Under the pieces are notes generated by a model. That model made no database searches. It was not told where the DNA came from and saw only the letters and a program-made list of their open reading frames with translations. A DNA stretch of 64,000 bases from Marchantia polymorpha subsp. ruderalis (Eukaryota > Streptophyta > Marchantiopsida > Marchantiales > Marchantiaceae), in assembly GCA_037833965.1 (NCBI GenBank), contig AP031355.1, positions 11,495,501 through 11,559,500 of the forward strand, in the 5' to 3' direction. Shown here piece by piece: positions 2,766 through 59,527 of this stretch; the stretch's first letter is position 1, and every line of letters starts with the position of its first letter. Made by a program: the position numbers and the translations under genes.

Positions 2766-5700
2766 ATGTCAAACATGTTGACTCGAAAATGCCATCGGAC
2801 GTTGTCGGACTTCCACCTCTTGGTCGGGAGCTTCTTGCTCGCTGCTGCTGCGCGAGCTTACAGCTATGGCGACACGATACCAGATTTTAATTGGGAGAGA
2901 CTTAGCATCATCTGTACCAACATGGCCACGGGCGTGCAGTGCGATACAATGGACATTAGGTCCTTGAATTTTGGGGGCTTCACCGACACCCATCGCAACA
3001 TCATTTCAGTCGATATCGACGGCTACTATGCCTTAGGATTCCAGCAGATCACTCGCGGCGAATTCTTCCTCTCCATCTATCCCTTCTATCCTACCGACGA
3101 TTCTGCCGGGCCTGCAATTTGGACTGCCAACCGCAACTGGCCAGTGGATGAAAATGGCACGCTGGGATTCTTGTCGACGGGCACGCTCGAGCTTCGAGAC
3201 TCGAGAGGAACTGTGGTAAGAATCTGCACTCCTGTCCCCCTTCCCTGCATTGCCATCGTCCTACGACCATTAAGAATGTCGGTCACGTTGCACGAGATCT
3301 GGGACCGCAAAAACCCCAGAGCTGCGCCAGTAAACCAGTCCTTCGATTAGAATGTGTTTCATTGTGATCTCAGTGGCTCAGCTGCATCAATGCTGGTGCT
3401 CAAACTTTGATAAGCTTATGACAATCAATTTATCGTCGTAATCTCTCGGATGCTTGCTGGACCTGCCTGCGCAGATGTGGTGCACGAGAACACATAATAG
3501 AGGGGTTGAGAAATTTGTATTCTCTCCCGAGCACGGAAAGATCGAGCTACTAACTGCAACCAATGACAGTATATGGTCGAGCTTCGACGACCCCTCGGAC
3601 ACAGTGGTGGAGAATCAGGTCCTGAGCTACATGGGCGGCGCGGTGGTGAGCAGCGAGACTCGAGAAGGGCGAGGCACGGGAAGGTACAGCATGGTGGTGA
3701 AGGCCGGCGGCCTCGTGCTCTACGCGAGGAGCGAGAATGGCAGTCAGTTCCAGCCGTACCGAGCATTTGGACTCAATGGCAGAGACGACCTGCAGTCGGT
3801 GCTGCACACTTGCAGATTCGCCTCGTCCGTCGCATTCCTGCTGCCGTCGTCTCGATTCGTCGCAATCCTGCGCGAGAAGAATTCCAGCGTGCACGCAGTG
3901 CTGGGGCGAGACGTGGATCCCGAGCTGTGCGCGGAGGAATCGTTCAATAATAATGGCAGCGAGCGAGGCCTGTTTGATCTGGACACTCTGATAAACTCGA
4001 CGTGGCCGAGCCGAGTGGCGCCATCGCTCACCAAAGCGCTCAAGCTCGAGTACAATGGCACTCTGACGCTCTACGCGTGGAGGCGGGGCGTGCAGATCTC
4101 GCCCACCGCGACGGATGCGGTCGATCTCTTCGGCTCGGACGATGCGTGCAGTTTTCCCGATCGCTGTGGCCCTTTCGGTGTGTGCATCACGGATCCTCTG
4201 CAGGCGGCGGGCTACTCGTGCTCCTGCCCTCGGAGCCCCGACGACGACGATCAGCTGCCGAGCTCGTCGTCGTGGCCGTGGGAAGAGATTGAGCCCGGAG
4301 TCCCCAGCCATGGCTGCAGGCTGTTGGCCGGCACGCCGACGTGCAAGCAGGATCGTAAGGTCGGTGGCGGATCCGAGCTGCTCGAGCTTCGGAACGTGGA
4401 TTATTTCGCCAACGATTTTCTCACACCGATGCTGGTCTCACAAGACGCATGTCGGCAGCAATGCCTGCAGGATTGCTCGTGCGTCGGTGCGTTTTACCGA
4501 TCGTTTCCCGAGGGCCAGTGCTTTCTCCAATCGCAACCCTTTCACTCGCTGCGAAGCGCCAATCTGAGCTTCACCGCATTCATCAAGGTGAGCTCGTCGA
4601 CCGCCGAATTCTCCACCACGTACGCCTTCTTGCTGATCATGGGCACTCTGGCAGCCACTCTGCTCGGGGCGCTGGTGGTGTGCGCATTTTGCATTCGGCG
4701 CCGCCAGCAGCGCAGGTGTTACAATGTGAGTCAGAAGTTCTTCAGCCTGCAGGAGGATTTGTTCCTCGACACGCTGTCGAGCTTGCCGCCGAGACTGCCT
4801 CTGAAAGTGCTGGAGAAAGCCACGAAGGGCTTCCGAGACAAGCTGGGCGAGGGGGGATTCGGCGCTGTGTACAATGGATTGCTCCCCGACGGCACTAAGG
4901 TGGCCGTCAAGAGGCTCGAGGGCCCAGGGCAAGGAGTCAAGGAGTTCCGGGCCGAGGTGGCCACCATCGGCAGCATTCACCACAAAAATCTCGTGCAGCT
5001 CTGCGGATTCTGCGTCGAGGGAGCCGAGCGCCTTCTCGTGTACGAGCACATGGCCAATGGATCTCTGGACAGTCTTCTCTTCTCAGACACCAGCACCAAT
5101 TCTCAGAGCAAGCTCGGCAAAGACGGATGCATCCTCGCGTGGGCGACGAGGATGAGTGTGGCCAAGGACACGGCTCGAGGGCTGGCGTATCTGCACGAGG
5201 GCTGTCGCGAGAAGATCATCCATCTGGACATCAAGCCGCAGAACATCTTGCTGGATGAGCACTTCCTGGCCAAAGTGGCGGATTTTGGGCTGTCGACTTT
5301 GGTGAAACGAGACAAGCAGAGCTTGGTGGTGACGCAGATGCGAGGGACGCCCGGCTACCTTGCGCCCGAGTGGCTGCACATGTCGGCTGTGACGGAGAAG
5401 GCAGACGTGTACAGCTATGGAATGGTTCTGCTGGAGCTCGTGAGCGGGCGCAGGATTGTGGAGCCCGACAAGGTGTTCTTGCCGGCATGGGCGTTTCAGA
5501 GGTTCAAATGCGGGCAGCTCCAAGAGCTCATCGATCCCAAAATTGCTGACTCTGTGAACATGGACGAGGCGCATTTGATGATTCGGGTGGCGTTCTCGTG
5601 CATCCAGGAGAATCCCCTGGAACGACCGTCCATGAGCTTGGTCGTTCAGATGCTGGAGGGCCTCGTGGCCGTTCCCCAGCCCCCGCGGTTCGGCCAGATG

Positions 5701-5907
5701 CCGAGAATTCTGAGCATGTCCACGATCAGCTTGTCATCCTCGAGCTCAGATTCTTCGTCGCCCAATCAATCTTGTACAGATGACTCCAACCGATTGGGGC
5801 ACTCCTTCAATGGCCTGGGCCAGCGGGCCACCGATCGAGGCTACTCGTACCTGATGGAAGGTGGACTTTCTACTGCCTACATTCATTCTATCACTGCTCC
5901 TAGATAA
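2766..5907 (+). CDS. G-type lectin S-receptor-like Ser/Thr kinase, copy 1 (960 aa, 2 exons)
   Basis: A plasma-membrane receptor kinase of the S-domain family. Exon 1 is 2766-3215 and exon 2 is 3475-5907, separated by a 259-nt phase-0 GT-AG intron that contains stop codons. The ATG is followed by a signal peptide (about residues 1-31). A bulb-type lectin domain follows (about 70-165, with IWTANR near 118), interrupted by the intron. Next come an EGF-like segment (cysteines about 375-401), a PAN/apple domain (about 438-522), a single transmembrane helix (about 532-556) followed by Arg-rich sequence, and a kinase domain (about 605-880). The kinase has the glycine loop GEGGFG (608-613), Lys629, catalytic Asp735 and DFG at 753-755. 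The catalytic loop reads HLDIKPQN, so it is a non-RD kinase. The tail ends in a GGLST motif shared with the paralogue at 10817. The ligand is unknown. The family call is firm; the start and the intron are inferred from alignment to the paralogue. Confidence 0.92.
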
Positions 5908-10733: not shown

Positions 10734-10782
10734 GAGAGATAGAGAGATAGAGAGATAGATAGATAGATATAGAGAGAGAAAG
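10734..10782 (+). repeat. GAGA/GATA microsatellite in the presumed 5' leader
   Basis: An imperfect run of GAGATA, GATA and GA units ends 34 bp before the start codon at 10817. Purine-rich GAGA tracts are common in plant core promoters and leaders, so it may be length-variable and could affect expression. That role is inference. Confidence 0.85.
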
Positions 10783-10816
10783 ATTGATTGTGTGCAGCAC
10801 CATCGACAAGTTTCAG

Positions 10817-13800
10817 ATGTCAAATCCAAAATGCGTGAAGTTGTGTCTTGTTTATTTGAGTGTGGTGCAGTTGGCGACGGCAGCAGCGCCAAATCAGGGG
10901 CGGAGCAACAAATTCGACCGCTTCACTCTCGGCAATGTGAACATAATCTGCACGAATTTGGCCACGGGCGTGCAATGTGACTATCCGATTCCGTCGGCCG
11001 GGACCACAGCGACGGGCAATTCGATGCATCGCAACATCATCGCGTACGACTCGGACGGCATTTACGCGCTGGGGTTCCACGAGCTCGTGCGCGGCGAGTT
11101 CTATCTCTCCATTTACCTCTTCTACCCGAGCGACAGCTCCGCCGGCCCCCCGGTCTGGACGGCCAATCGCGACAACCCGGTGGATGAGAACGCCACCATG
11201 AGCTTCTTGACGACCGGATCCTTGGAGCTTCGAGACTCGCAGGGCAATGTGGTACGCCGACTCCCAACCTTGCGCTCATGCTGTCTCTCCCATCGCATCG
11301 CATTCTCATCAATTCTCTGCATTTCTCGCATTGCATTTCGAATTCGAATCTCGAATTTATTACAATTTCTCGAATTGCCATTGACGAGTCGTGCATTCGG
11401 TTGGTGCTCCTCATGCTCGAAGAAATGGTCGTCGCGGACGGAGACGAAGGGCGTGAAGAGCTTGGTGTTTCTGAACGACGTGGGCAGTCTGGAGCTGCTG
11501 AACGAGGCGAATCTGACAGTGTGGCAGACGCTGGACGATCCGTCGGACACCGTGGTGAAGAACCAGGTCATGCGATTCGACCCCGCAGGGCAGAAATCCG
11601 TGGTGAGCAGCAGCACGCCCGACGGGCGCGGCAAGGGATTGTACTCCATGGCCATGGGCGCCGGCGGCCTCGTCCTCTACGTGAGCGCCGATCGCAGCAG
11701 CACTGCTGCGCTTCTGCCATATCGCACCTACAGCTTCTACGGCCAATCCGACCTTCGCTACGCCTTGCGCACTTGCAGGCATCCCACCTTCGCATCCTTC
11801 TTCCCGCCTTCGTCATCCCGATTCGGCGCAATTTTGCAGCAGGACAATTCGTCGATCGCCCCGGCCTCGGTCGTCGACCCCGCCCTCTGCAGCAGCAGCC
11901 TCGGAGCTGCGAAGGGCATCTTCGACCTTCAGAGGCTTGCGAATTGGTCCTCCGAGGTCAATGACACCAAGGCCTTGCGGCTGGAGCACGACGGATCGCT
12001 CAAGCTCTACTCGTGGAAAGCTCAAGCTCGCACTGCCTCCAATCCGCTGGTCGTCGACTTGTTCAGCGACGACGACCCGTGCAGCCTCCCCAATGTGTGT
12101 GGGCCTTACGGGGTCTGCACCAGAAGCTATGGCGACTCGACTTACTCCTGCACTTGCCCATCGACGTCTCGAGACAGGCCCAATCGCTTCTGGGATCAGG
12201 TGAGCTCGCAAGACGCCAATCAAGGATGTCAGCTTCCCGGAGACCGACCCGTCTGCTCGGTGGGACCTTCGTCCATCCGCACCGACTTCATCGAATTAGA
12301 CAGCGTAGACTATTTTGCAAATGAGTTTGCCACAGCCCAATTGAGCACAGCCGAGCAATGTCAGCAGCAATGTTTGCACAATTGCTCGTGCCATGCCGCT
12401 TTCTATCGAACGAGCTCGGGCCAGTGCTTTCTCACATTCCATCCTCTGCTCTCGCTGCGTGGCGAGAACTCGTCCACCTTCGTGGCCTATGTGAAGGTCG
12501 TCAGGCCCGACTCGAGCTCGTCAGCAGCCACGGGCTTGATCGTGGGCGTCTCGGTGGGGGTCGCAGGTGCAATTGTGGTCGGGCTTTCGATCGCTGCGTT
12601 GTTGTGCATCTGGAGGCGACGACGACGAGAGATAGGCTGCAAAGAGGCGAACCTGTTTCTCAATTCGCTGCCAGGATTGCCGCCGAGGCTGCACCTGAAG
12701 GACCTCATGACAGCCACGCAGGAATTCAGTCTCAAGATCGGCGAAGGGGGATTCGGGGCGGTGTACAAGGGCAATCTGCCCGACGGCACAGAGGTGGCTG
12801 TCAAGAGGCTCAAAGGTGCAGCAGGTCAGGGAGCGAAGGAATTTCGAGCGGAGATGGCGACCATTGGCAGCATCCACCACATCAATCTCGTGCGCCTCTA
12901 TGGGTTTTGCGTCGAGGGCGACCATCCTCTGCTGGTGTACGAGTACATGGCCAATGGATCGCTCGACAGTCATCTCTTCATGGACGACACGGCCAAGAGC
13001 GCCAAGAGCTGCTTGGACTGGCAGACGAGGATGAGCATCGCCTCCGACACTGCCAAAGGTCTGGCGTACCTGCACGAGGACTGCCGCGAGCAGATCATCC
13101 ATCTGGACATCAAGCCGCAGAACATTTTGCTCGATGAGCAATTTCGTGCCAAGGTTGCTGACTTCGGGCTGTCCAAGCTCGTCAAACGCAACCAGAAGGG
13201 CCAAGGCCAGCAGGGCGTGACGCATTTGCGAGGCACCCCGGGCTACATTGCGCCCGAGTGGTTGCACATGCCCACGGTCACCGAGAAAGCTGACGTTTAC
13301 AGTTTCGGCATCGTGCTCTTGGAGCTCGTGAGTGGCAGGAGGAATGCCGAGTTCTCTCTGAGACCCGAGAGGATGTTTTTCCCCCGCTGGGCCTTCCAGA
13401 GGTACAAGCACGGCAAGCTGCAGGAAATTTTGGATCGTCGGCTCGACGAGTTTGTCAGCACGGATGAGGCGACTCGCATGCTTAAGGTGGCCTTCTGGTG
13501 CATCCAGGAGGATCCTCTCTTGAGACCGGCGATGGGTGGCATTGTTCAGATGCTGGAGGGGACATTGCAAGTCTCGGAGCCTCCAGAGATTCATGGATAT
13601 TCAGAAGCCGAGACCATTGTCGACATCAGAGAATCCGAATTCGTGTCTCCATCTTCGAATGGCATCTCCTCCGCTGCTGCTGCTCCTCCTCATCATCAGC
13701 TGGGCCATGGAGTCAATGGTGTCAACGGGGTCGACCAGAGGGCTGGAACTCGGTCGTTTTCCAAGGCTCTAGAAGGTGGACTGTCCACATCCCATGAGCT

Positions 13801-13822
13801 ATCGATAGTAGAAGCTAGATAA
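10817..13822 (+). CDS. G-type lectin S-receptor-like Ser/Thr kinase, copy 2 (944 aa, 2 exons)
   Basis: Tandem paralogue of the gene at 2766, with the same domain order. Exon 1 is 10817-11251 and exon 2 is 11423-13822. The intron is 171 nt, phase 0, and lies at the same position as in copy 1. It is a multiple of three with no in-frame stop, so reading straight through gives a false longer protein. The ATG at 10817 starts a clear signal peptide (about residues 1-26). A lectin domain is followed by an EGF-like segment (from about 365), PAN domain (about 423-505), transmembrane helix (about 516-541) with a run of arginines after it, and a kinase domain. The kinase has GEGGFG at 585-590, Lys606, catalytic Asp707 in HLDIKPQN (non-RD) and DFG from Asp725. 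The C-terminal GGLST motif is shared with copy 1. A TTG codon 33 bp upstream is in frame, but I see no reason to prefer it. Confidence 0.92.
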   Translation: MSNPKCVKLCLVYLSVVQLATAAAPNQGRSNKFDRFTLGNVNIICTNLATGVQCDYPIPSAGTTATGNSMHRNIIAYDSDGIYALGFHELVRGEFYLSIYLFYPSDSSAGPPVWTANRDNPVDENATMSFLTTGSLELRDSQGNVVRRLPTLRSCCLSHRIAFSSILCISRIAFRIRISNLLQFLELPLTSRAFGWCSSCSKKWSSRTETKGVKSLVFLNDVGSLELLNEANLTVWQTLDDPSDTVVKNQVMRFDPAGQKSVVSSSTPDGRGKGLYSMAMGAGGLVLYVSADRSSTAALLPYRTYSFYGQSDLRYALRTCRHPTFASFFPPSSSRFGAILQQDNSSIAPASVVDPALCSSSLGAAKGIFDLQRLANWSSEVNDTKALRLEHDGSLKLYSWKAQARTASNPLVVDLFSDDDPCSLPNVCGPYGVCTRSYGDSTYSCTCPSTSRDRPNRFWDQVSSQDANQGCQLPGDRPVCSVGPSSIRTDFIELDSVDYFANEFATAQLSTAEQCQQQCLHNCSCHAAFYRTSSGQCFLTFHPLLSLRGENSSTFVAYVKVVRPDSSSSAATGLIVGVSVGVAGAIVVGLSIAALLCIWRRRRREIGCKEANLFLNSLPGLPPRLHLKDLMTATQEFSLKIGEGGFGAVYKGNLPDGTEVAVKRLKGAAGQGAKEFRAEMATIGSIHHINLVRLYGFCVEGDHPLLVYEYMANGSLDSHLFMDDTAKSAKSCLDWQTRMSIASDTAKGLAYLHEDCREQIIHLDIKPQNILLDEQFRAKVADFGLSKLVKRNQKGQGQQGVTHLRGTPGYIAPEWLHMPTVTEKADVYSFGIVLLELVSGRRNAEFSLRPERMFFPRWAFQRYKHGKLQEILDRRLDEFVSTDEATRMLKVAFWCIQEDPLLRPAMGGIVQMLEGTLQVSEPPEIHGYSEAETIVDIRESEFVSPSSNGISSAAAAPPHHQLGHGVNGVNGVDQRAGTRSFSKALEGGLSTSHELSIVEAR

Positions 13823-28426: not shown

Positions 28427-29884
28427 ATGGGGGTCGCTGGAAAGCAGCTGCGTGTGAAGCTGAATAATGGCCAGTTCATGCCCGCAGTAGCAACCGGAAC
28501 TGCTCCGATGAAGGAAATGTCGCCCGAGTTCGTGATCGAGGCCATCGAGGTTGGCAGGCCAGGCTAGTCTCGATGATTATGTTGGTTGTGTTCTAATCTG
28601 CATCGTATGTTGACAGAGCTTGTGTGGCCATGGAGTTTCCTGACTTCACACTGCGCTCGTCGATCAGGTTGGTTACAGACATTTCGACACCGCCGCCATG
28701 TATGGAATCGAGGCAATTCTGGGCAAAGGTCTTCAACAAGCGTTCACCCAAGGGCTCGTGAAACGGGAGGACATTTTCGTCACGACGAAGCTCTGGGTCA
28801 CAGATCTCAACGCGCCGGACATCGTTCCCTCGCTGAAGAAATGCCTCAGGTAAGACTCCATCTCTGGCACTCGATGAGTCGTCCTTGTCATGCTTGTTCC
28901 TGGGACCTTCACAAAGCCTGCAACTGCGGCAAGGATGTGTCCCGAGAGACGCATTGGAGCATGATCTGCTGGAAATTGAAATGGAAGAGAAGGGAAATCT
29001 GACTTGCACATGACGACATGTTCAGTGCGCTGCAGCTCGAGTACGTGGACATGTTCGTGCCGCACTGGCCCGTGAGAATCCGCCCCGGATCGATGTGGTT
29101 TCAGCTGGCACCGGAAGATTTCTTGCCGCTCGACTTGCCAGCGTGCTGGAAGGCCTTCGAAGAGTGTGTGCATCTCGGATTGACGAAAGGCATCGGAGCG
29201 GGCAACTGCGGCATTAAGAACCTCAAGTTACTCATGGCCGACGCCACCATTCCGCCTGCAATCAATCAGGTCCGCCCAATGCTTTTCCTGAAACTGCTTG
29301 CAACGCTCGGAATTAGTGAAATTGGAGCGAAGCACAGATTGGGGGTAGTGCTCGGAGGCCTGACGGTGTGCGTGTTGTAGATAGAGCGCCATCCGGGTCA
29401 CGAGCGACGGGAGATTGTAGAATTCTGCCAGAAACACGGAATCCACGTTCAAGGCTGGGCGGCGTTAGGAGCTCCGAATTACGGCGTTCTGCCACTCGGA
29501 GCATACGGCACGAACGTCGTCCTCGAGAGCCCGATCCTGATCAAAATTGGAGCCAAGTACGGCAAAACGAGCGCCCAGGTTGGTCCCGATCTCCCATTCT
29601 CGCAATCATCATTCCGCTCGATCGATCCTCCATTGATCGACTCTCATAATTGTGTGACGCAGGTGGCTCTGAGGTGGAATTTGGACCAAGGCTGCAGCGT
29701 GGTGGTCAGGAGCACGAAGCGCGAGAGGATGGCGCAAAATCTCGACCTCTTCGACTTCTCGCTCACGCCCCAAGAGCTCGTCGACATTCGAGGCGTCGAG
29801 CCCAACATCATCGATCCCGGAACGTTCTTCGTCTCCGCCGGCAGTCCTTACAAGACGCCGGCAGACATGTGGGCCGAAGACTGA
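28427..29884 (+). CDS. Aldo-keto reductase (322 aa, 5 exons)
   Basis: A NAD(P)H-dependent cytosolic carbonyl reductase of the AKR superfamily, most like plant AKR4-type enzymes. Exons are 28427-28549, 28668-28849, 29026-29269, 29381-29578 and 29663-29884. All junctions keep the frame, and the total is 969 nt including TGA, the usual family length. The catalytic tetrad is complete: Asp48 and Tyr53 (FDTAAMYG), Lys82 (TTKLW) and His115 (VPHWP). Other family signatures are NQIERHP, the GWAALGAP loop and VALRWNLDQG in exon 5. Two places differ from the usual plant consensus: GAGNCG where GVSNF is common, and VVRST where the cofactor-phosphate loop usually has a Lys before Ser. The substrate cannot be deduced. 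The first intron's donor (GTTGGC) is weak, and the same AGGTTGG occurs at both ends of that intron. Confidence 0.93.
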
Positions 29885-30977
29885 CTGACATTCCGGCGAC
29901 CGCGAGAGTTCGAACCATCCCGAGCCGGCCGGTGCGCTTCCTACCACGTAGCAGAGGCACGCACACTTGTCACCAACCGAGTTGAGAACGCGGTTGCTCC
30001 GCACCATCGCCCCAGTACATAGCAAGGTGACGGATTCCGCGAGCCCTCCACACAAACCTTCGCCTCATCGGAAGGGAAGGGGAGATGTTTTCGTCAGAGA
30101 TCATCGGCATCTCTATTGATACGATATTGTTATCCTGGATTCATACCATGCCAGGCATTCTTCGAGCCCGTTGCTCCAGCAAGAATATGTTTATTGCGTC
30201 ACACTGTGATTTCTAGTCATGTAAACTAGGCACTGGAACTACTTCCAGGAGTTTAATGAATTGGGTTGCAAGGCGGTGCGTCTCACCAGGGAGAAATTGC
30301 TGGTAAGATTTTGGGTCAATGAAGTTGATGACACTGACAAACTTTGTTTCCATCGCGATTATGATTTCGTGAGTGGCAGGATATGGTTTTCTTACTACCC
30401 AATGATGAAGAAAGAAAGGTCATGCAGGTTGAGAGATCTCGAGGTGAGTGGGTCATGATATGGAAGATAAGTTACTTTCTATCTCATGCATATAATGAAG
30501 TCAACATCAACGTTATCAACAAATTTATGAAAACCTGAATCTGTGAAGACTGAAAATCTCGAGAGTTCTTTTGTAAGTGAAGAAGATACTCAGTACTATT
30601 CCGTCAAGTGGTAATTGGTGGTATTTAAGTTTACATCTTTTTCAAGGTTCTGCTCATGTGATAGATACCTCCACTTATATTTTCCAGGGTTGAGTCAGAG
30701 TCATCGTACACAAGCAATTTGACTTTCTAATTCTACAATAAACTGGAAACTCGAATTAGGCACTGATTGTCGGGTCCGAAAGAAAATTGAGGTAATTTAT
30801 ATCTGTCATTTTCTGATTACTTAGCATGTAAGTATGAATCTTGCCACAAATCTAATGACTCTTTGTGTGTTTAGATGCGTGTTGATCATGATATGCGACT
30901 GGTGCTCGTCTCTTTGATTTGACTGTCTCGACAAACATATGCATGATCATGAAGATTTTATAACAATTTACCGTCTT
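29885..30977. other. 3' flank of aldo-keto reductase and intergenic DNA
   Basis: The first part should be the 3' UTR of the reductase. No further coding region is supported. The open frame at 30261-30458 starts without an ATG and shows no domain. Confidence 0.55.
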
Positions 30978-31220
30978 CAGGTTTGTGTTGGTAGATGCTG
31001 TGTGGACTCACAGAGGTAGGCTTTCTTATATGACAACAAACAGATGGCACATTTCATTTCAGGTTTGTGTTGGGAGATGTTGTAAGGACTCGTGGGTAGT
31101 TTTCCTTATGTGACAACAACCAGATGGCACATTTCATTTCAGGTTTGTGTTGGGAGATGTTCTAAGGACTCGCGGGTAGTTTTCCTTATGTGACAACAAT
31201 CAGATGGCACATCTCAATCC
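30978..31220 (+). repeat. Three-copy tandem repeat, period 82 then 80 bp
   Basis: Units start at about 30978, 31060 and 31140, each opening with caggtttgtgttg and ending in gatggcacat. Copies 2 and 3 differ by only a few bases; copy 1 is more diverged. No coding frame is kept across the units. Confidence 0.9.
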
Positions 31221-31390
31221 ATCGTGCGCTCTTATGTGAAACGAATGACTACATCTGAGATGGATTTCGGAAGTGTAGAATCTTCCAACAATGTCAATTT
31301 CATTTGATCGTGTGCTCTTTTGGAGAAACGAATAACTACATCTTTGATGGATTTCGGAAGTTTAGAATCTTCGAACAATGTCGATAGGTT
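31221..31390 (+). repeat. Two-copy tandem repeat, period 86 bp
   Basis: Begins directly where the preceding 80-bp array ends. Units start at 31221 (atcgtgcgctctt) and 31307 (atcgtgtgctctt) and share ggatttcggaagt. It is a second, unrelated repeat family abutting the first. Confidence 0.88.
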
Positions 31391-33746
31391 CATGACATGA
31401 CCACATTATTTTCTCATCATATGAATGTTTTCACTTATTCCTGAACTTGGAACATCTAAAGTATTTCCAAACTTTGTATTTTAACAATCTTACTATCTTA
31501 CAATATTTTGACCAGATTTCTTGTCCTGTTTGTTCAAATCTTCGATCTATAATTTTTTGACTTTAATCTGTTAAGTTTAGAATATTATATCTATATCATG
31601 TGAGATTTTATCACTTTTTGATTTTTATTAATAAAATAAATTTGATTTCTGTATGAAAAGATATCAATTCTCACCATTAACAATGTCAATATATATTATA
31701 TAATTTACCTTGGTATTGTATGTAAATGTACCTAATGAAATACTGAACTATCTTGTAACGTGCGATATGATATATGTATTAAAAAAATCTCAGTATTAAT
31801 GGATAGTTTAAATCAATTATACTTAAATAGAATCTCCATGGATATAGATTATGAAATAGTTGATTCGTTCTATGTTCAAAGAAAGTTTAATTAAATTAGA
31901 GAGATGTAAATTTATTGTTCTTGGATGGAATTGATTTATTTTTAATTATATTTTCTCTGTATTTTTCTAGATAAATATAAATTTCATATTATTCATTTTA
32001 TAATTTTAAGATATATGTATAGAATATATAAAATTTTATAAATTAAAAATTATTCGAAATATAAGTACATTGATATTAATTTAATTATATACAAGTAAAT
32101 TCAATTTTAGTTAACTTCAAAAACAATTTCTTATTTATATAATTTAAAGAAAAATCGCATCTTAAAATGGAAAAACATTTATCACAAATGAAAGTTTTTT
32201 TTTCTAAATGTTCAATCATAAAGCTCGATAACAATTAACTTTAAAAAATTTTGTCATATTTTGTCATTGCTAATATGCTTAAAAAAATTATTATTTTCAA
32301 AATCAAGATAACAACACATAGTTTATTAGATTTACGAAAATTGTGAATTTTATGTACATCATATGATACAAGGTGAACTTTGAATAGGTTATTTTTCCAA
32401 ACATATCTAGATTTATAAATTGAAGTATCAATCTCCTTGCATTTTTTTAAGAACAATACGATATGTTACAACATATCTAACATATTTGAAATTTTTCTTC
32501 ATAAATTATATATAAATTTAAAATACATGTGTTTGTTACTTACTATTTGTAATTGGATTAAAGATGACACCTTTTAATTACATAAATATTTTATTTTACA
32601 TCAATTAAATTAACGTAGAATTTTTAACAATGATGTGAGTATATAAGTATGATGTTTGTAGATTATTTTCATATTTATTTTTTTAATTTCAAAAATAATT
32701 CCTATTAATTGATATTTCAATTTGTGTGAATTTATTTTTTCATATAAAATTTTTAAATTCCAAGTTGAATTTTTTTTTAGGTAATTATAAATAAATTATT
32801 AATTTTTTTGTTTAGAAATTAATGTATAGAGCATGTTATTTTTACCTCACCAAGTATTATACTTTGTAACATAATGTTAATTATACAAAACTCAATTGAA
32901 AAGTGTTGAATGCAATGCAAAGCAAACTCATTCATTTTAGTTACTACAGCAAACTAAAGCTACTATAATCATTTTGTATATGCTAAAGCTTTCTCCTTGA
33001 GATGCATTTCATTTATTGACATGTTTGAATTTTATCAAAAAAGCAAAATCAATTATCATTGTTTAAAATATCTTGTTATATTATTTATATTTTCAGGTTG
33101 AAAAAAAATATAAAACTTAAGATTACGTCTAAGCATTAATATTTTCCGATTTATTACCTGAATACTTTATCATAGACTATGATAATCTATGATTTGTGTA
33201 ATTTTTTTTGAAATATACTATTAAAAAGTTATTTGATAATATTTCTAATTTAATTATTTACGTATTGTATGTCAATGACAATTACATCGGGAGAAAAAGA
33301 TCAATCCAACATTGACATGTGCAAAAAAATCAATCGAAATTTGATTCATGATAAACAAATTTAAAAACATTTGGAAATCTATTAGATATTTATGTTTGTA
33401 TAGACTTTAAGAAAGCTAATCACATGATCAAGTCAAGTCAATCACATTCTATGAATGATTGATAGAATAAACATTAATACTATTGTTCAAAGCCATTACT
33501 AGTGTCATTTTACAAGTTGTTTGGGGTGTGAGGTGATTGTTTTTCTAGATAGAAAAAATTGTAATAGATTTTTTGGTTTTTTTTGCAAAGAGGTTCTATT
33601 AGAATAATATAAATAAAATCAATCATAGTAAAGTCCAGATTTGTATAGTTTATTCACTATTGGACTACCGATTATCTTCCCATATTAAGCTAAACAAAAG
33701 TTTAGGTTTTCTTTCCCGAACGGGAACCATTCTCGCCAAACACAGG
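31391..33746. other. Very AT-rich block, no gene
   Basis: A long, strongly AT-rich stretch rich in A/T homopolymers. There are no domains, RNA genes or transposon proteins. The only open frame of note (minus 32241-32456) is Lys/Ile/Asn-rich, as expected from composition alone. Confidence 0.65.
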
Positions 33747-34474
33747 ATGGCGGAGCCAAGGAAATCTTCAAGTGCTAGAGGCAATCAGCAACTGCAGCAG
33801 CTTGAAAACTATCGAATGAAAGTTAGTTTTGAGAGATTTCAATACCAGTTCCAGTACCATTATACGACAGATGAAAATTGGTAGGTTGACATGAATGTTT
33901 GAAGCGGAAATGGAGAGCTTGGATTAACAATTGGAAATAATTTTGAATTTCTCTAGTAATTGATTTTACATATAGTTGCGAATTTTACATTGTAAATTTA
34001 AAAAATATATACCGTGTGCTTGAAGTCTTCTGAACAGAGACTGGATTCAGAAAGGGAAGACGTCAGAATGAGGATAGATAGGGAGTTCAAGAGGATAGAA
34101 GAGCCTATGTTTTACCTTGCAAGTCTACACACCGCAAAAAAAAAATTTAAAAAATTGAGAATTTCATACCTGAGAAAATGATATTCACCAAACAAGTGTT
34201 CAATTGAAAAAGCAGGGAAATTGAAACAAGTTCTGATCATAAAAGGAAGATTGAAGCAACTTCTTACCATTGGAAGAAAATCGAAGCAAGTTCCGATCAC
34301 AAGAGGGAGATTGTAGCAAGTTCCGATCACGAGCGTGAGATTGTAGCAAGTTCCGATCACGAGAGTGAGATTGCAGCAAGTTCTGATCATGAGTGGAAGG
34401 TACTTTGGCAATTCAACAATACTCATGCCTACAAAGAGTTTCTAGTGGTATGTAGCATGGTTGAGGACGACTGA
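33747..34474 (+). pseudogene. Possible remnant of a charged, repeat-bearing protein gene
   Basis: Three open pieces lie in line on the plus strand within AT-rich surroundings. The first is an ATG frame at 33747-33884 (45 aa, Gln-rich), ending beside a donor-like TTG|GTAGGT. The second is a charged, coiled-coil-like stretch near 34039-34110 after a CAG acceptor. The third is an open frame at 34208-34474 containing six in-frame decapeptides (EIVASSDHER-like), ending in a TGA. The splice phases do not join cleanly, so I cannot offer one working protein. The family is unknown. A copia LTR lies about 110 bp downstream. Confidence 0.25.
34217..34396 (+). repeat. 30-bp minisatellite, six units, exact period
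   Basis: Units start at 34217, 34247, 34277, 34307, 34337 and 34367. The consensus has a core of agcaagttccgatcac. The period is exactly 30, so a frame stays open on both strands. On the plus strand each unit gives a decapeptide such as EIVASSDHER. The first two units are the most diverged and units 4 and 5 are nearly identical. Confidence 0.93.
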
Positions 34475-34855: not shown

Positions 34856-35461
34856 TCATCTATCGACTAAAAGAGATTTTTTAGGTGGCGTTTCCAGACT
34901 TCGTAGTCCAAGATAATGTTTGTGGTGATTAAACTTCAACCTAAAAAGAGCCTTGGTCAGCATATCTGCTTGTTGTAATTTTGTGGAGAGGAATAGAACT
35001 TCAATCTCCTTCAAAGCTATCCATTTCTTTATTAAATGATGTTGCATGCCAATGTGCTTGCTCCTTGCATGAAATACTAGATTTTTGGCAAGTTTTATAG
35101 CACTCTCATTGTCAGAGTGAACTATTGTGCATTTAGTTAGTGAACTGGAAGTGGGAAGTGCAGAAGTGATCTTGATGTCCTTGCAGGAGAGAGGAGTTGG
35201 TGTCATTGTGACTGTAACTGGGTTGATTTCATGTAAAAGTTGATGTAGCCAAACAGCTTCATGTGCACTAAAGTACAAGGCTTTATATTCACTCTTTGTA
35301 GAAGAGAATGAGATAAGATTCTGCTTCTTATAACACCATGATACTGCTCCTCCAACGAGTGTAAATATGTAAGCACCAGTACATTTGAATGTGTCCTGGC
35401 AAGAGCTCCATGTGGCATCTGTATATCCCTGCAATTGTAATGAATTTTCTCGTTTGTACAA
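34856..35461 (-). pseudogene. Copia RNase H domain
   Basis: A still largely open minus-strand frame with the copia RNase H signatures: YTDATWSSC at the start, SSTKSEYKAL in the middle, and DNESAIKLAKN followed by a KHIGMQHH-type stretch and ADMLTKAL at the end. This is the best preserved part of the element's polyprotein. Confidence 0.88.
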
Positions 35462-35522
35462 TATCCCGTGGTCTAAGGTACCCTTGAGTCACAAGGTTTG
35501 GAAGCCAATATCTAGATGAGAC

Positions 35523-45730: not shown

Positions 45731-45737
45731 CATAGCA

Positions 45738-45811
45738 TGGCCCATACAGGTCTCGAACCTGTGACCTTCGCGTTATTAGCACGACGCTCTAACCAGCTGA
45801 GCTAATAGGCC
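45738..45811 (-). tRNA. tRNA-Ile, anticodon AAU
   Basis: A 74-nt intronless cloverleaf. The acceptor stem GGCCTAT pairs with ATGGGCC (one G-U), followed by discriminator A. The D arm contains GCTCAGCTGGTTAGAGC, which also serves as the A box. The anticodon stem TCGTG/CGCGA carries loop CTAATAA with anticodon AAT. The T arm ACAGG-TTCGAGA-CCTGT contains the B box. There is no encoded CCA. It decodes AUU (and AUC/AUA after A34 is changed to inosine). All features look functional. Confidence 0.96.
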
Positions 45812-48142
45812 ACATATTCATATCCTTACATTTTTAAAATTTATAATAATAATTTTAATTCAAGTCAGCTCGGAACGACCTTCTGTACATGACATCTCTG
45901 TTCATAGAGTAGTGCATTGCAAAGACGAAAGGAGCCAAAGATAGAATCAAAAGCAGTCACCAATTCCAGTTGAAACAGGATGAAGGATCTACAAGGACCT
46001 TGCAAAAGTAGTGTAATTATAGTTTATGTAATAAAGCTAAATAACTTTGTATCTTAGATATATGAAATGTTTGTCTTATACCTCCTATATAATCCTTGTG
46101 GAAAAATGTGTTATGTCAGAAACCTAATATCATTATTTGAAATAGAAATCATTTGATCATTTGTAATTCAAGCTGTCATCCAAGGCCACCTTGCCGATCT
46201 AGAGTCCGTCGGAAGTCAGATACTTCCAAGACCATATCGGGTACTTCGCCAACTAACATTCTATTGAGCAGGCCAAGATATCACCCAAAGAAGGGTATCT
46301 AAACGCACATCTGTAAGGAAACCATTTTTCTCTTCTAATATTTGTTTTTCCGTGTCCTGGTTCCACTAACACAAAATTCGGTTATGATTGATTATTGATA
46401 CAATTATTTCAAATGAATTTTATGCTACTGTACTTATCAGAAAGCATTCATCAATGAATATTCCATATTACATTCATGGCCCGAAATACACGTAAGTAAG
46501 CTACAGATCAGGTTACTTTCAAATATATAATCTCGTTGTATCGTTTGCATCAAAAAAATGACCAGAGAATATAGACCTTATATCTACACTAATTTTTCAA
46601 ATTAAATGACACAATGCCTCAATCTCATGTAAGCCCAAGCTGTCTATAAATCCTCTTTTAAAAAAAGATATACCATCGAAATAAAGCCCAAGTAATTATT
46701 GCGTTTATCTGTATGTATTGGAAATCAAGTTTCTTCGAGAATGAAGACAATATAATTTTTAAAACAGTAATTTTATAATGAATTTCGAATTATGTATCAT
46801 CAACATGACTACAAATCAACATCTTAAAAACATTTCAAGCGAATTTATCGAACTTTATATTGAAATTACCCTATATTCCTACTTCTCAGTTATCCATCCA
46901 TAGAATTTTTATAGTGTAGAGTTTTAGTAAAAAAAAAATCTCAATTATAATGTTCCTCTTCTGTAGCTGTTCTAATTTATGACAATTGTTAAAATTTACT
47001 TGAATATAGATAGCTTAGGAAAAAAATTCCATTTCCCTCAAAAGTCAAAACAGTGTTTTGATTAAGAACTCCTGCATTTTCAAGATTTATTCATGCAACA
47101 CGAATAGATTAAATATTTTCATTCATTGATTTGGATATAAAAAAATTATCTCATTAAATATATATACACTATCAAGCTTATATGAAGAAAAATAGAAGGT
47201 AAAACCAATATGAACAAGAATAATTTACTGTCAAACTTCGTGATAATAAGGTTTCTCCAAGATAAATAATATTCCTGCTAGCTTGGGAATCTTGACATAA
47301 TGTACTCCAAACATGTAAAAAATGAACAAAAGGGAAAAAAAATTGGAAGTGAGGACTCTCCAAGCTTCTTTATCAAAGATGAAAAATCTAAGTTCATTAT
47401 AAGCTATTATGAAGTACAGATAGTTCGCGTTATCATGAAATCGTTTATTCCTACATGCAAGTCTGATATTAGCAAAATAATGGATATATTGATTATTTCA
47501 AAAAGAATTATTATTAGATTGCCATGAGAAAGATTCCAAGCAACAATCAAACAATTTGGACAGGTCGGAATAAAGATATCAGTTTTAATCCGACGTGTTT
47601 AGAATATCATTTTGTGTAGCAAGTTTCAGTTTTAATTAATTATACGCCAACATTTTTTGTTCGGTATCTGAAATTATGCAAAAAAAAAATCAATAAGATA
47701 GTAAAATATTAGTAAAAATAATAGATAAATGACCTTTAAAAGTGATCATTCTGTTTGCCAATTACAATCTCAACTTATGAATTAAATTCAAAAAAAAAAA
47801 GAAATCTCGGATTTGATATATAGACTTTTATAATATTGATATGACAGAGAATTTTTCAAGTCTTCTAAACAAAAAACTGAGTTTAATTCTGTCAGAATCT
47901 CATACTCAATTTTATGAAATATTTAATTTCACTCAAAATACTAATAATTTCGAAGACTGTGTTGCTTGATCTCAACAAATGTAATCGATCTAAGAAATGA
48001 TGGGGTCAAGCCCTGTACCTTGTAATACACCTCACATTACATATGCAAGAGGTTCTTTTCTTTTCCAGTTCTTCTCAGGTTCCTTCAATGACGCCTTCGA
48101 ACGCTTCTGTGCATGCACTTCTTCCCCGTCAAAAGGTTGCCT

Positions 48143-53523: not shown

Positions 53524-56500
53524 CTAATCTTCAGAAAGCTTTTCAGCAGGCAGGGTTTTGAAGACTTTGTCCCACGTTGTCGTGGTGATTCCGTATCCGT
53601 TTGTCTGATCCTTGAAGTGGTGGTTCAAGTGGTATCTCTGCGGGACACAATGTTGAACGGATTCATATTGATTAGTTGAAACTGGTCGAGGAGTTACAAT
53701 GACAGCATGTAAGTTTCACTCGCAAATGTGATACCCACCTTCATTTTCCGTGTTTGATCGCTGAAGGCAGTGCCGAAGTGAAGGAAGTAGTGCGTTAAAT
53801 CGTATGCAACGTAGGTCAACAGAGCACCGCCGTATAGTGCGAGCTTGATAGGGTACGGCGCAAACCACTGGCCGAGCGCGACCCAAATCTGGCGGATAAA
53901 TAGACAGAAAGGTAAGACAGTTGTGACTGTACATACTGCTGACACCTTTCTAGAGCTCGTGTAAATAGCACCATTGAGAGGAAAAGATAGCATACAAGAG
54001 GGACCGTGAGCAGCGTCGAATCAACTGACTTACAATTGTGCAGATCACCGAGGTGAAGGCTGGAGGGAAAACCAAACGAGCACCATCCATCGGATGCTTG
54101 TGGTGAAAGCCATGAATGACGTAGTGGAATGTGTTACCCCTGCATGTGCAGCTCTTGGGTAAGTAGACTGCCTCAAAAAGTGCACGTGCTTGAAATGTAC
54201 AAGACTTCGATCGACTAAAGCCAGCAATCGAGATGTTGTTGGACATTTACCAAAAGCTTGAAGTCTTCATGTGAAAAAGGAACCGGTGCAACATATACTC
54301 CAGGAAGGTCCATATCATGGCCCCGACGATCATAAGCACGGGAAGTTGGGTATAGGTGACTCCATTCTTGACCGCCAAGACTTCCATGGCCAACGCAACA
54401 GGAACCCATATCAGGGGGATCACCCACCAATGCGTCCTTGTGAAGAACTGCCAATCAACAGTGACAACGAATGTTAATTGGAGTTCGTATTCATTTCAAG
54501 AAAATTAGATCAGATATCGGCGGTATCGACGCTCGTGACATGAAATACACGTGGTGGTCGAACAAGCCGGCACTATGAAACTATCCTTGTCCGTTGTGGA
54601 CCGAATCATCTGTAAGAATTGACTGACAAACATTTTGAAAAGATAAAACTTGGTATGGCAAGAATTTATCGTTGTCAGATTACGAGCAACAAGATATTCT
54701 AACAGTCTGACACGTTTACACACTAGTACTTTTCACTACTGTGTCTCAGGCACCTCTACCCATGTCAACAAAAGGTGGGAAACTCCTCAGATGTCTTCTG
54801 GCACTAAAAGACACATTGTTAGATTGCACGCCTCCATCACCTCTTCAACTTCTACGACCCAAGAAAGCCAGACCAGGCAGATGCTTAGAAATCATACGCT
54901 ACGATGTACGCGGAAAACGATAGTAGAGGGTGATTGGCCAGTGGAAAAGAAAAGCGTGTGTGGTGATTAGTTTCCGGCACCAGCCTATGTGTAGGTCCGT
55001 AAAGACCCACATTTTGGGCACACTCGCCGCCTATCGCTCATACTAAAAACATTCTTTCTGCAACACAAAAGCTTTCTTTCGGGCACGCTCGTCGAGATCA
55101 TCTCTAGCTCCTTCGCGACGATCGAAGTAGAGATTCCAAAGTATATTCACCCGTCACGGACCATACTCATCGAGTAGCGTAGACATCGATACCGGGGACC
55201 CAGCGACAGCTCTACAACAGCACTTTAGCTACGAAGCATCCTTGTGCGGTCATGGTGACGATCGAACATCATCACGGACACCATTCTCCCCTCAACTGTA
55301 TAAAGTACGTGAACATTGGCCACGCATTGTTCTCCACCGGTTTCGAGGTTGGAGATTGACGCGATTGCTGTGCCCGTCCTTTTCGGTGTGTCCGGGAGCC
55401 GGCACGCCCATTGTCCCATCCACAACTGAACACATACTGCTACTGCGGCTACGTGTACAGGGGTACATTTCTCCACTGTTAGTAAGAGCTGCTCACTAAG
55501 TCAGTCGAGGTCAGCACTCATCATTTGCGTGATGACTCACAGCATTATTGGCCGAGACCCGTCTTTCACTACCACGTCAGGAATAGGCTCGGAAAAGAGG
55601 CATTAGCCCCACACTCTGCTGCAGTCTACTCGGATGTAAGTTCTACAGCGAAGAGAGCAAACTGTTGATCTTGGTCCCGTCATCCGTGCCTGACATCGAC
55701 GCCTCGTGCTCTCAACACTCACTGCGAGAGTCATCCATTCGAATGGCTCCTTCTCGCGCCCATTGAAGTCAGGAAACTTCGTGGGATGATGAAATCCCAT
55801 TTACCTCCGGTCTGTCTGGGCTTGGCCGTACGTACCGGCAACGTAATAAAGAATTGGGCCATGGACACTAATCCACTCAGTTAAGTTCAATGCAAAGCTC
55901 ACAACGTGGAAAAGCCTAGCGGGCGGAGGTAATGGCCGTGACCAATCCGAGCATCAATCAATTTCTCAGGCCCATGGTAGATGGCGATAATGTTCAGATC
56001 CTCAGAAGTGACCAAGCGCTCCGTGCAGGATAATATCAGCCACCACTCCCTCAACCGTTCGCTAGAGTCTTGTGGAATAAAATATTCGAGCGTCGCATGC
56101 AGATAGCGTAAAGCCGGTCTGCGTGCCCTGCCCAGCCCTGGCCTTGCCTGGCCTCGTCTGCCGCGGCGAGTACAGGAAGAATGCGGCAGACTTGCTCATG
56201 GACTGGCACCGCGGCAGAGCGTTTTCTTGGCCCACAGCTGATTGGAAGTTGGTTGATGCCTTTAAATCCCACAAGAGGACCTGTACAGACACTCAGGATT
56301 TTGGCAGGTCCGATACACAGCAATTAAAGCGCTCAAAACAGGAAGCTCTGGGCATCAAGTCTCGAGTGGAACTTACCGAGCTGGGAAGGAGAACAAGCTT
56401 CCGACAAGTGGGGAAAAGCGTTTCATTACGGGTCCAATTCGGAAGAGTATCCAAACGAGAGGAGTTTCCGCGCTGAAGGAAAGCACTGTCCCGAGCCCGG

Positions 56501-59500
56501 AGGGATGAATAATCCTGCGGCCTACACAGTTCTCGACATCGTACTCTTCGTGGCGGGTAATCACTAGTAACTGAGCACGATGATTGCCCGGGACTTCGAC
56601 TCGATTGGCAGAGTCGGATCAAGGAATAGCGCGTTGGCAGCAAAAGAAAATAAAGAATGATTTCGGGTCTAGGGTTCGTACATTCCAGCTCATGCAGCCC
56701 GATGTCCAGTCCCTAGACCATGCGCAGAGATCAATACCTGTAGGAAGCCCAGCCTCGGAGCCAGTCCCGAGGAACCAACCAGAGCTCAAAAGAATCTGTC
56801 TCGATCAACAATTCATGGCGGTTCTAGACTCTCGCACACTCACTCATTGTTGTGAGAGAACCACCACACAGACGACCATCAGGTTGTCAGGTCCACCGCT
56901 TGCGCGCACATCATGAGCGATGGCCTCGCAAAATAGTTGAGACCCGTGAAGTCTGAGCCCCTCGAGGCCATGAACTTCGCGCGTTATAGTAGCAGCCGCA
57001 AGATGTTGGAGAATTGAGGCACGTCGTAATAAGGCCGACTTGCAGGAGTTTGTTGGGGCCTTAATCGCTGTAAGGAAGCCATGGCAATGATGTACTTCTC
57101 GCAGGCATACAGTGACGAATCGAAACTGCGTCGAATCTAGACGAACGTAAATCGACGGTTACGCCTCCTGACCATTACGAGCCAGAGGGTATGGGGTCCG
57201 ACTTCGGAACATGGACGTACTCGTAAAAGCCTGCATGTGGCAGGTATCCTGTACACCACCCATTGACACATTTATGAGGACCCTCCGCGATTTCAGACGA
57301 CTGCAGGCCGAAGGTAGGGACATAAATTTCGGCCGGACTCGAAACGAATCCTCCAGATGAATTCTCTAGGCGCCTCATCCCATTTGCGGGCATGAATGCA
57401 GAAAATTTCAAAATGACATCATTCGCGTGGAGCCTGACCGATCGGCAGCACCGCAGCAGCGCTCGTCGGATCTACTAGTTCCACTGCCCGTAACCGAGTT
57501 AGTCTAGTGGAAAGGTTTCGCAAATCAGTTGAGAGGCAATTTTATCGCAGCAGAAGAATTGCAGACAGCAACACCGGAATTATGGACACATACTACGGTA
57601 GTCTGCGCAAGTTATCTCCTGGGGTTGCCTCAGATAGGCTAGACTGCTCAATGTTGGGAGCACCTGCCCTCCCAATCTGTACCAGACGACCGGAAATTGC
57701 GGCGTCATGTGGGAGTTCCAAATTTTGAAACCGACAAAATTGGCCTTGGACGGAATCACTGCGCCTGGAAGCTTCTGCTAGTATTACGGGATCAAGTTTT
57801 TGCCAATCGTGCGCGATGATATTACGACATGCTGGAGATGAACACAACAATCTCAGCAGACATAGGAAAGACTGACTGTTCCCCTGACCATTAACCTGCG
57901 GACTCGTCGTCAACTAACAAAGTCTCACACCACAAACCTGAGTCACTCGGAAGTCAAAACAAATTCGAAGTTCTACACCAGCACATTGCCGCCGTCGAGA
58001 AGCTCGAATTCGAGAACGTCGAATGTGCTACACGGTAAGAAGAAGCGTGGGCGAACTTCAAGCAGTGAATCATTCTGAACCCGTGAGAGCTGTAAAACCT
58101 CAACCCGAGCCATTTAGAAAACAGCTAAGAGAACGACACTTGCGAAGCGTGCATTCCGTACCTCTGAGATGTCACTCTCGAAGAACCGAGGACTTTCCCT
58201 CGACACAATCGGATCATGGACCCACTCGTCGTAGTCGGCTCCCAGATATCCAACCTGCAGAAAGATCCGGAAATTAGAAGGACGACAACCGGATGAATGC
58301 AGTTCAGACCTACAACGCAGAAAGCAGTTACGATAACACTCTTGCAACCTAACGGTTCGGACACGCGCCACGAGTGTAACGTCACCGAGATCATGTAAAC
58401 GAACCTGTCCAACAATTGGCTTCGATAAATCGACGGTGTATTTCTTCGTATCCGAGTTGCTCTTTTTCATATTCTCTTCGGTTTGGAGCCTGCATCAACC
58501 CACATGTAACTGGCTTTGACTTCTGCTACGTAACTGCTGCTACTGCCCATTAGAACTTGGCATGTGCACGTAGTTTCAAAAACCTGGTACAATGCCATGA
58601 CTTGGACTAACAAATGTCTTCTTGAACAGCGGATGGTATGCCAAGAAGTCCAAAGGCGCACTGGACTGTAGAGAGATAGATTGAGTTCCACAGCACCCCA
58701 TAAGACTCGAATAGTTTCTTGCCACTCTCGCCCCCAACTGAAATTCAAATGTTGTCTACTGATACCGAACAAAACAATGCGGTTTGGAGCTGCGAGGCAA
58801 GGGCGAGCAGGTCGAAATTGACGAGAGCTTACCCACGGTGGTTTTCCACTGATCCGATTGAGAATTGCTGCAACATCTTGAACGCAGCTTTGCTGTGGCT
58901 GTGTCCATCTTCTTCTTCTTTGCCTCTCATCAGATTCCCGGCATCACGTACGTGCAGGTGATCAAGTATCAACTGTTCGAAAAGCCAAAGCACGCGAAAG
59001 GGTCAGGAGATTCAGTTGTGCTAAAGCAAATATTGCAGGTCGGCTTCACGTGGGGATCTGAACTCGTCGCTGAACACCGTCTGACTCAGGTAACTGCCAG
59101 GCCACACCTTTCGCTAGAAAGACGAAGGGAGAAGCCAAGTCCAACTGGGAACGTGGGTTCTAGGGGGACTGATGGACCCCCAGAAACGTAACCGAGCTTC
59201 AGAGGGACTTCAGCTCACCTCTTGACCACCAGGATGAGTCTCGAGAAAGTACGTCACGTCGTACACTTGGCCATCCACGACAATCCACGCATCGTCCACG
59301 CTCCTGTGCTTGGCAATCTCCTCATAACTGAAAACTTTCTTCTCCACAGCTTCAGGAATCAGCAATGGCTCCGTTGGAGTGGTCGCCTTGACAGAGGTTG
59401 CAAGCCCAATTGGAGCTGTAACGGAGCTCCTCTTCTGCTCTGGACCAAAGCTTCGTATGACGGACTCATTTGAAACCTGGGGCGTGATTCCCATCAGTGG

Positions 59501-59527
59501 CATGGACGCCATTGAGGGAGGAGCCAT
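53524..59527 (-). CDS. Cytochrome b5-fused fatty acid 2-hydroxylase (397 aa, 8 exons)
   Basis: An ER membrane enzyme that 2-hydroxylates fatty acyl chains of sphingolipids. Exons in transcript order are 59527-59219, 58972-58833, 58489-58405, 58254-58162, 54447-54251, 54139-54034, 53888-53739 and 53637-53524. All have GT-AG borders and joined phases, totalling 1194 nt including TAG. Residues 65-149 form a cytochrome b5 domain with heme ligands His98 (HPGG) and His127 or His129 (GHSHSKAA). The linker leads into KKYTVDLSKP, then GYLGADYDEWVH, typical of plant hydroxylases. The di-iron histidines are all present: H263/H268 (HRFLFH), H284/H287/H288 (HGFHHKHPMD), H343/H347 (HYFLH) and H363/H366/H367 (HLNHHF). 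About four membrane segments are visible. Intron 4 is 3.7 kb. Arabidopsis FAH1/2 lack the b5 domain, while yeast Scs7 and animal FA2H have it. The ATG at 59527 is the first in frame. Confidence 0.93.

Follow-up and report, generated by a model that had tools for sequence, protein, structure and literature searches.

Fatty acid 2-hydroxylases of the Scs7/FA2H/FAH family are known both with and without a fused cytochrome b5 (b5) domain. The b5 domain is reported to be present in the animal, fungal, and protist enzymes and absent from the plant enzymes (PMC10002949), and a published tree likewise shows fungal and mammalian enzymes with b5 and plant FAHs without it (PMC10865788). In animal FA2H, which we compare by its description, b5 is N-terminal and is fused to the hydroxylase (PMC10002949). 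Here, we analyze a gene of Marchantia polymorpha subsp. ruderalis that lies on the minus strand at 53524-59527 of a 64,000-nucleotide stretch of contig AP031355.1. (We will refer to the whole stretch as the window.) Very probably, this is one gene, and its product is a member of the Scs7/FA2H family that 2-hydroxylates fatty acids (ceramide acyl chains) and has b5 fused to its N terminus as an electron donor. The fusion is likelier to have been kept than to be new.

FAH1 and FAH2 from Arabidopsis have no b5 of their own and interact with separate CB5 proteins (PMC10002949, PMC9539407, PMC2738916), which agrees with what a preliminary description of our locus had stated; in contrast, the window protein carries its own b5. 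Specifically, AtFAH1 and AtFAH2 bind all five of the CB5 proteins of Arabidopsis (PMC9539407), and yeast and Arabidopsis have been contrasted (PMC2738916). In moss, the main sphingolipids have alpha-hydroxylated acyl chains, and the sphingolipid delta-4 desaturase is not fused to b5 (PMC8318264).

Both domains are in one predicted reading frame

The preliminary description proposed eight exons that join a b5 domain to a hydroxylase, and our analysis bears this out. As modeled, the exons give 397 amino acids and a stop codon in a single frame, all seven introns have the form GT...AG, and the frame is open over every join. The predicted protein matches Cyt-b5 (PF00173) at residues 68-145 (E = 2.4e-16, 59.9 bits, with a Pfam cutoff of 23.7) and FA_hydroxylase (PF04116) at residues 249-388 (E = 1.4e-16, 61.5 bits, with a Pfam cutoff of 31). 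When we searched the Protein Data Bank (PDB), the best-matched solved protein was yeast Scs7 (also known as Fah1p; 4zr0), with E = 2.6e-48 and an alignment that spans both domains. Scs7 (4zr0 and the shorter 4zr1) was also the sole hydroxylase among 59 PDB matches with E up to 0.001. All 11 histidines in the four histidine boxes are identical in the window protein, in two paralogs from the same genome (see below), and in Scs7. Given the FA_hydroxylase domain and the four histidine boxes, the window gene belongs to the Scs7/FA2H/FAH family, so the proposed assignment to the fatty acid 2-hydroxylase family, which Pfam and the match to Scs7 over both domains support, holds as well.

The window protein and Scs7 share an N-terminal b5, a linker, a hydroxylase with four histidine boxes, and an HxHS motif within b5. 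On the other hand, their hydroxylase parts are 36% identical, the b5 loop of the window protein is four residues longer, and the window protein has a long unconserved extension at its N terminus. We also compared the hydroxylase body to a provisional sequence of Arabidopsis FAH1. By this comparison, the C3 paralog is the closest (60% identity), followed by the window protein (51%) and the C5 paralog (49%), and HHKHPMD is shared. The hydroxylase had been called plant-like partly because of the motif DEWVH, but this is only a weak marker for plants; animal FA2H presumably has DEWVH too.

A b5 domain with HPGG and a second axial histidine is in one modeled frame with the hydroxylase, both in the window gene and in 2/2 paralogs. 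The preliminary description named HPGG and GHSHS as the heme ligands. H98 of HPGG stands, and the second ligand can be narrowed down: the most likely ligands are H98 and H129 (of HSKAA), because H129, which is the second histidine of GHSHS, aligns with the axial histidine of ordinary b5 (GHSxxAxxxL). H127 appears to be an additional histidine. As read from the alignments, it is present in Scs7 too, and the motif is invariant in the three copies. We considered whether the longer stretch after HPGG might be due to a wrong acceptor site, but both paralogs are equally long there, so we rejected this explanation and consider these residues to be real.

NCBIfam has no family for the protein. Searches of IMG/VR and prokaryote genomes with the hydroxylase part or with a three-row alignment, and of IMG/VR with a four-row core that includes Scs7, found no relatives, but these were narrow patterns against collections other than plant ones and are uninformative about plants.

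Two paralogs have the same arrangement

We searched the genome (241.47 Mb in nine contigs) using the whole window protein as the query, which gave 28 matches with E up to 1. Hydroxylase matches were found at three loci only: the window, C3:1440761-1443780, and C5:19061266-19063444. At the loci on contigs C3 and C5, b5 matches lie directly upstream of the hydroxylase, in the same order as in the window gene. The modeled proteins have 381 amino acids (C3) and 394 amino acids (C5), all of their introns are GT-AG, and both proteins exceed the Pfam cutoffs for Cyt-b5 and for FA_hydroxylase. Thus, b5 is carried by 3/3 of the FAH loci that we found, and neither the window protein nor its paralogs share the absence of b5 that marks the FAHs of seed plants. 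No FAH locus without b5 was found in this six-frame, exon-by-exon search, in which only the best candidates were scored; a split and strongly diverged fourth copy could escape it. A search with the PF04116 family missed all three FAH loci, and the eight loci that it did find overlap none of the matches from the FAH search. This result and the PDB matches place the window protein nearest to Scs7, ahead of the other FA_hydroxylase families.

Two further loci have matching exons in matching order, which excludes chance as an explanation for the window gene model. The seven introns have phases 0,2,0,0,2,0,0 in the window gene and in both paralogs, and 6/7 introns are at identical alignment columns across the three genes (118, 193, 224, 290, 325, and 375). 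The exception is intron 2, which is at columns 165, 162, and 164: it lies in an unconserved linker, and its positions are within three columns. (The acceptor of exon 3 in the C3 gene was picked so as to read in frame, and the phase there therefore cannot count as separate support.) Judging from these gene models, the fusion of b5 to FAH predates the duplications that gave rise to the three copies.

The b5 domain is also conserved among the three copies, with amino-acid identities of 42-51% for b5 and 53-59% for the hydroxylase, as compared to 20-27% for the N-terminal extension and 10-27% for the linker. Similarly, the nonsynonymous divergence (dN) is 0.41-0.58 for b5, 0.35-0.40 for the hydroxylase, 1.20-1.35 for the extension, and 0.64-1.38 for the linker, with the alignment of the extension and the linker being unsure. 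Because b5 and the hydroxylase are both saturated at synonymous sites, we do not report dN/dS. By these measures, the b5 exons are constrained almost as strongly as the hydroxylase while the flanking parts drift.

By eye, the b5 domain of the C5 paralog (exon 1 is at 2284-2598 of C5:19058800-19065800) has lost the usual tryptophan and has diverged in its first half, and it has kept HPGG and HxHS. It may bind heme more weakly.

Structure of the window gene

All of the exons are on the minus strand. Exon 1 (59219-59527) encodes the start codon, an unconserved N-terminal extension of about 62 amino acids, and the first half of b5 as far as HPGGQE, which includes H98. The frame of exon 1 alone scores 46.4 bits against Cyt-b5 in Pfam, and its donor site is GTGAGC. 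Exon 2 (58833-58972), with acceptor CAG and donor GTAAGC, encodes the second half of b5, including HSHS (H127 and H129), and the beginning of the linker. Exons 1 and 2 both have counterparts at the C3 and C5 loci. Exon 3 (58405-58489) encodes linker sequence and the motif TVDLSKP. Where exon 2 ends and exon 3 begins, the linker is unconserved, and these two ends were set by the splice consensus and by the open frame; the remaining exon ends are anchored by homology on either side. The start of the provisional Arabidopsis FAH1 sequence aligns within exon 3.

Exon 4 (58162-58254) carries VGYLGADYDEWVHDPIVSRESPRFFESDISE. The four histidine boxes are in the remaining exons: HRFLFH in exon 5 (54251-54447), along with the first hydrophobic stretch; HYVIHGFHH in exon 6 (54034-54139), along with RLVFPP; THYFLH in exon 7 (53739-53888); and YHLNHH in exon 8 (53524-53637), along with the stop codon.

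Intron 4 (54448-58161, minus strand) has 3714 bases, versus 123 and 114 bases in the paralogs. We suspected an insertion or a nested gene, but in a search against the DNA of the genome, the intron matches only itself. The one open reading frame of this intron that we scanned (56296-56712) has no match in Pfam.

Was the fusion kept or regained?

The preliminary description allowed that this lineage might have kept the fused donor or regained it. The data lean towards the first option: we infer that the fusion was, more likely, kept from a common eukaryotic ancestor rather than made anew. In a tree of 10 b5 domains, the b5 domains of the three FAHs and of Scs7 are separated from the other six, with support of 81/86. 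The fused b5 domains and Scs7's b5 both have the HxHS motif, and in both, the loop from HPGG to the second histidine is longer than in free b5. (Counted on the alignments, there are 31 residues from histidine to histidine here, 27 in Scs7, and 24 in 3ner.) The b5 domain is at the N terminus, which is the same place as in Scs7. Finally, by eye, the free b5 on contig C2 has introns before VYDV and inside the AxG-KDA stretch and none after HPGGxE; because these positions differ from those in the FAH genes, the capture of that gene is disfavored.

The genome also encodes b5-fused desaturases (on contigs C7 and C8; named by eye), which likewise have an N-terminal b5 on a membrane enzyme of the di-iron type. 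However, these belong to another enzyme family, and their b5 domains are across the 81/86 branch from those of the FAHs.

In a five-row tree of the hydroxylase, the three copies are grouped beside the provisional sequence of Arabidopsis FAH1 (81/86), and the window gene and the C5 gene are sisters (98/97). The alternative of placing FAH1 with the C3 gene is not rejected by the approximately unbiased (AU) test (p-AU = 0.147). The tree is consistent with duplications that took place once this lineage had separated from that of seed plants, and it permits either one loss of b5 there or one gain here.

Several observations weigh against a single gene with a fusion that was kept. First, the b5 tree is not decisive: AU tests did not reject any of the alternatives that we considered, namely grouping the fused b5 domains with the b5 of this plant (p = 0.093), with three rows of free b5 (p = 0.183), or with every b5 row of this genome that the tree includes (p = 0.208). 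Second, in a single-sequence search of the PDB, the fused b5 was more similar to free cytochrome b5 type B (51 bits) than to Scs7's b5 (40 bits), and a profile search gave a near tie (59.3 bits for the best free b5 versus 58.5 bits for Scs7). Third, loss and gain were judged from few rows, of which one is a provisional sequence. Fourth, one of the three b5 domains, from the C5 gene, is diverged and lacks the usual tryptophan. Fifth, the join of exons 2 and 3 was placed to give an open frame in all three genes, so the agreement of phases is partly by construction. Sixth, the window gene and the C5 gene may make additional forms without b5.

The alternative that fares best is that the fusion was regained in this lineage: ahead of the duplications that gave the three copies, a plant FAH that had no b5 would have acquired one from a free b5 of the plant. 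That the provisional FAH1 sequence falls outside the three copies in the hydroxylase tree (81/86) is compatible with one such gain, the AU tests do not reject it, and published surveys describe plant FAHs as lacking b5 (PMC10002949, PMC10865788). We nevertheless consider a regained fusion to be unlikely, as it runs against the placement of the fused b5 domains with Scs7's b5, the HxHS motif and lengthened loop that Scs7 also has, the N-terminal location of b5, and introns whose positions, by eye, do not match those in one of the genome's tail-anchored b5 genes.

Somewhat less likely again is that the gene gives both a fused and a b5-less product, via an alternative start or promoter, and represents a middle step in the loss of the domain. 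The window gene does have an ATG in exon 3, and the C5 gene has in-frame ATGs within intron 2. However, such a start is not conserved, as there is none in the C3 gene: it has no ATG in exon 3, nor in frame back to a stop codon 8 bases upstream. Therefore, a b5-less protein cannot start there unless another 5' exon exists.

The absence of that start from the C3 gene also counts against the weakest alternative, which is that exons 1 and 2 are a small b5 gene immediately upstream of a typical plant FAH without b5, with the FAH beginning at the ATG in exon 3. This ATG is ahead of TVDLSKP and near to where the provisional Arabidopsis FAH1 sequence begins, and the join of exons 2 and 3 is in unconserved sequence; but the identical arrangement is found at three loci on three contigs, and the frame of b5 reaches a stop codon no more than two codons beyond the donor of exon 2, without a hydrophobic tail anchor. 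By eye, exons 1 and 2 encode no C-terminal transmembrane tail of the kind that marks free tail-anchored b5 and that the free b5 on C2 has. (A stop codon at this position follows simply from having a GTRAG-like donor in phase 2 and, taken alone, has no evidential weight.) Because two paralogs share the layout and b5 is nearly as well conserved as the hydroxylase, it is very unlikely that exons 1 and 2 form a separate gene.

Other features of the window and the genome

The window also contains two long frames for receptor-like kinases on the plus strand, at 3442-5904 (Pkinase and PAN in Pfam) and at 10763-13819 (Pkinase, B_lectin, and PAN). A frame at 29381-29881 on the plus strand encodes the end of an aldo/keto reductase domain and is probably one exon of a gene. 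On the minus strand are a tRNA-Ile gene (45737-45812; anticodon aat) and an open reading frame (34859-35488) that by eye resembles a fragment of a copia-type RNase H, with no match in Pfam at E = 0.01. Tandem arrays with units of 80 and 87 bases are at 30976-31382 and 32001-34000, near a very AT-rich stretch (GC content of 0.235).

Outside of the window, C2:15139103-15148801 contains two adjacent genes for tail-anchored cytochrome b5, which by eye appear to be a tandem pair; for the second of these genes, no first exon was found. The genome also has a LEAFY gene (SAM_LFY, E = 1.6e-35), which is present in 0/14 control genomes and agrees with a plant from the streptophyte lineage.

Proposed mechanism and implications

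The gene model, both of the domains, the paralogs, and their conservation come from this genome; for cofactor binding, the electron route, the substrate, and the location in the endoplasmic reticulum (ER), we rely on Scs7 and FA2H. By analogy with those enzymes, the b5 domain would be on the cytosolic side, would receive electrons from NADH-cytochrome b5 reductase, and would hand them to a di-metal site that is held by the histidine boxes in the ER membrane. The di-metal center would then hydroxylate C2 of the acyl chains of sphingolipids (ceramides). In seed plants, whose FAHs are b5-less, the equivalent of exons 1 and 2 would have been lost. This biochemical design is the known fungal and animal one; the finding itself is a sound gene model that makes a real exception to what has been stated for plants in general.

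The available parts of three papers on the sphingolipids of bryophytes or land plants (PMC9113257, PMC12619088, and PMC8318264) do not name a b5-fused FAH, and the available part of PMC4928187 has nothing on one. Our literature search gave no report of a b5-fused FAH from a bryophyte among the matches listed, although protein databases may well list such a model.

On balance, we lean towards a scenario in which the FAHs of early land plants were fused to b5, as inherited from a eukaryotic ancestor, and this genome keeps the state before the loss. The seed-plant line would have lost exons 1 and 2, with shared free CB5 proteins taking over as the source of electrons, and FAH would thereby have become open to control by proteins that partner with CB5, for example BI-1. 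These gene models contradict the published statement that the FAHs of plants have no b5, a rule that appears to be too broad. The three fused FAH genes offer a way to date the loss of b5, and they provide one plant in which a built-in electron donor can be compared with free b5.

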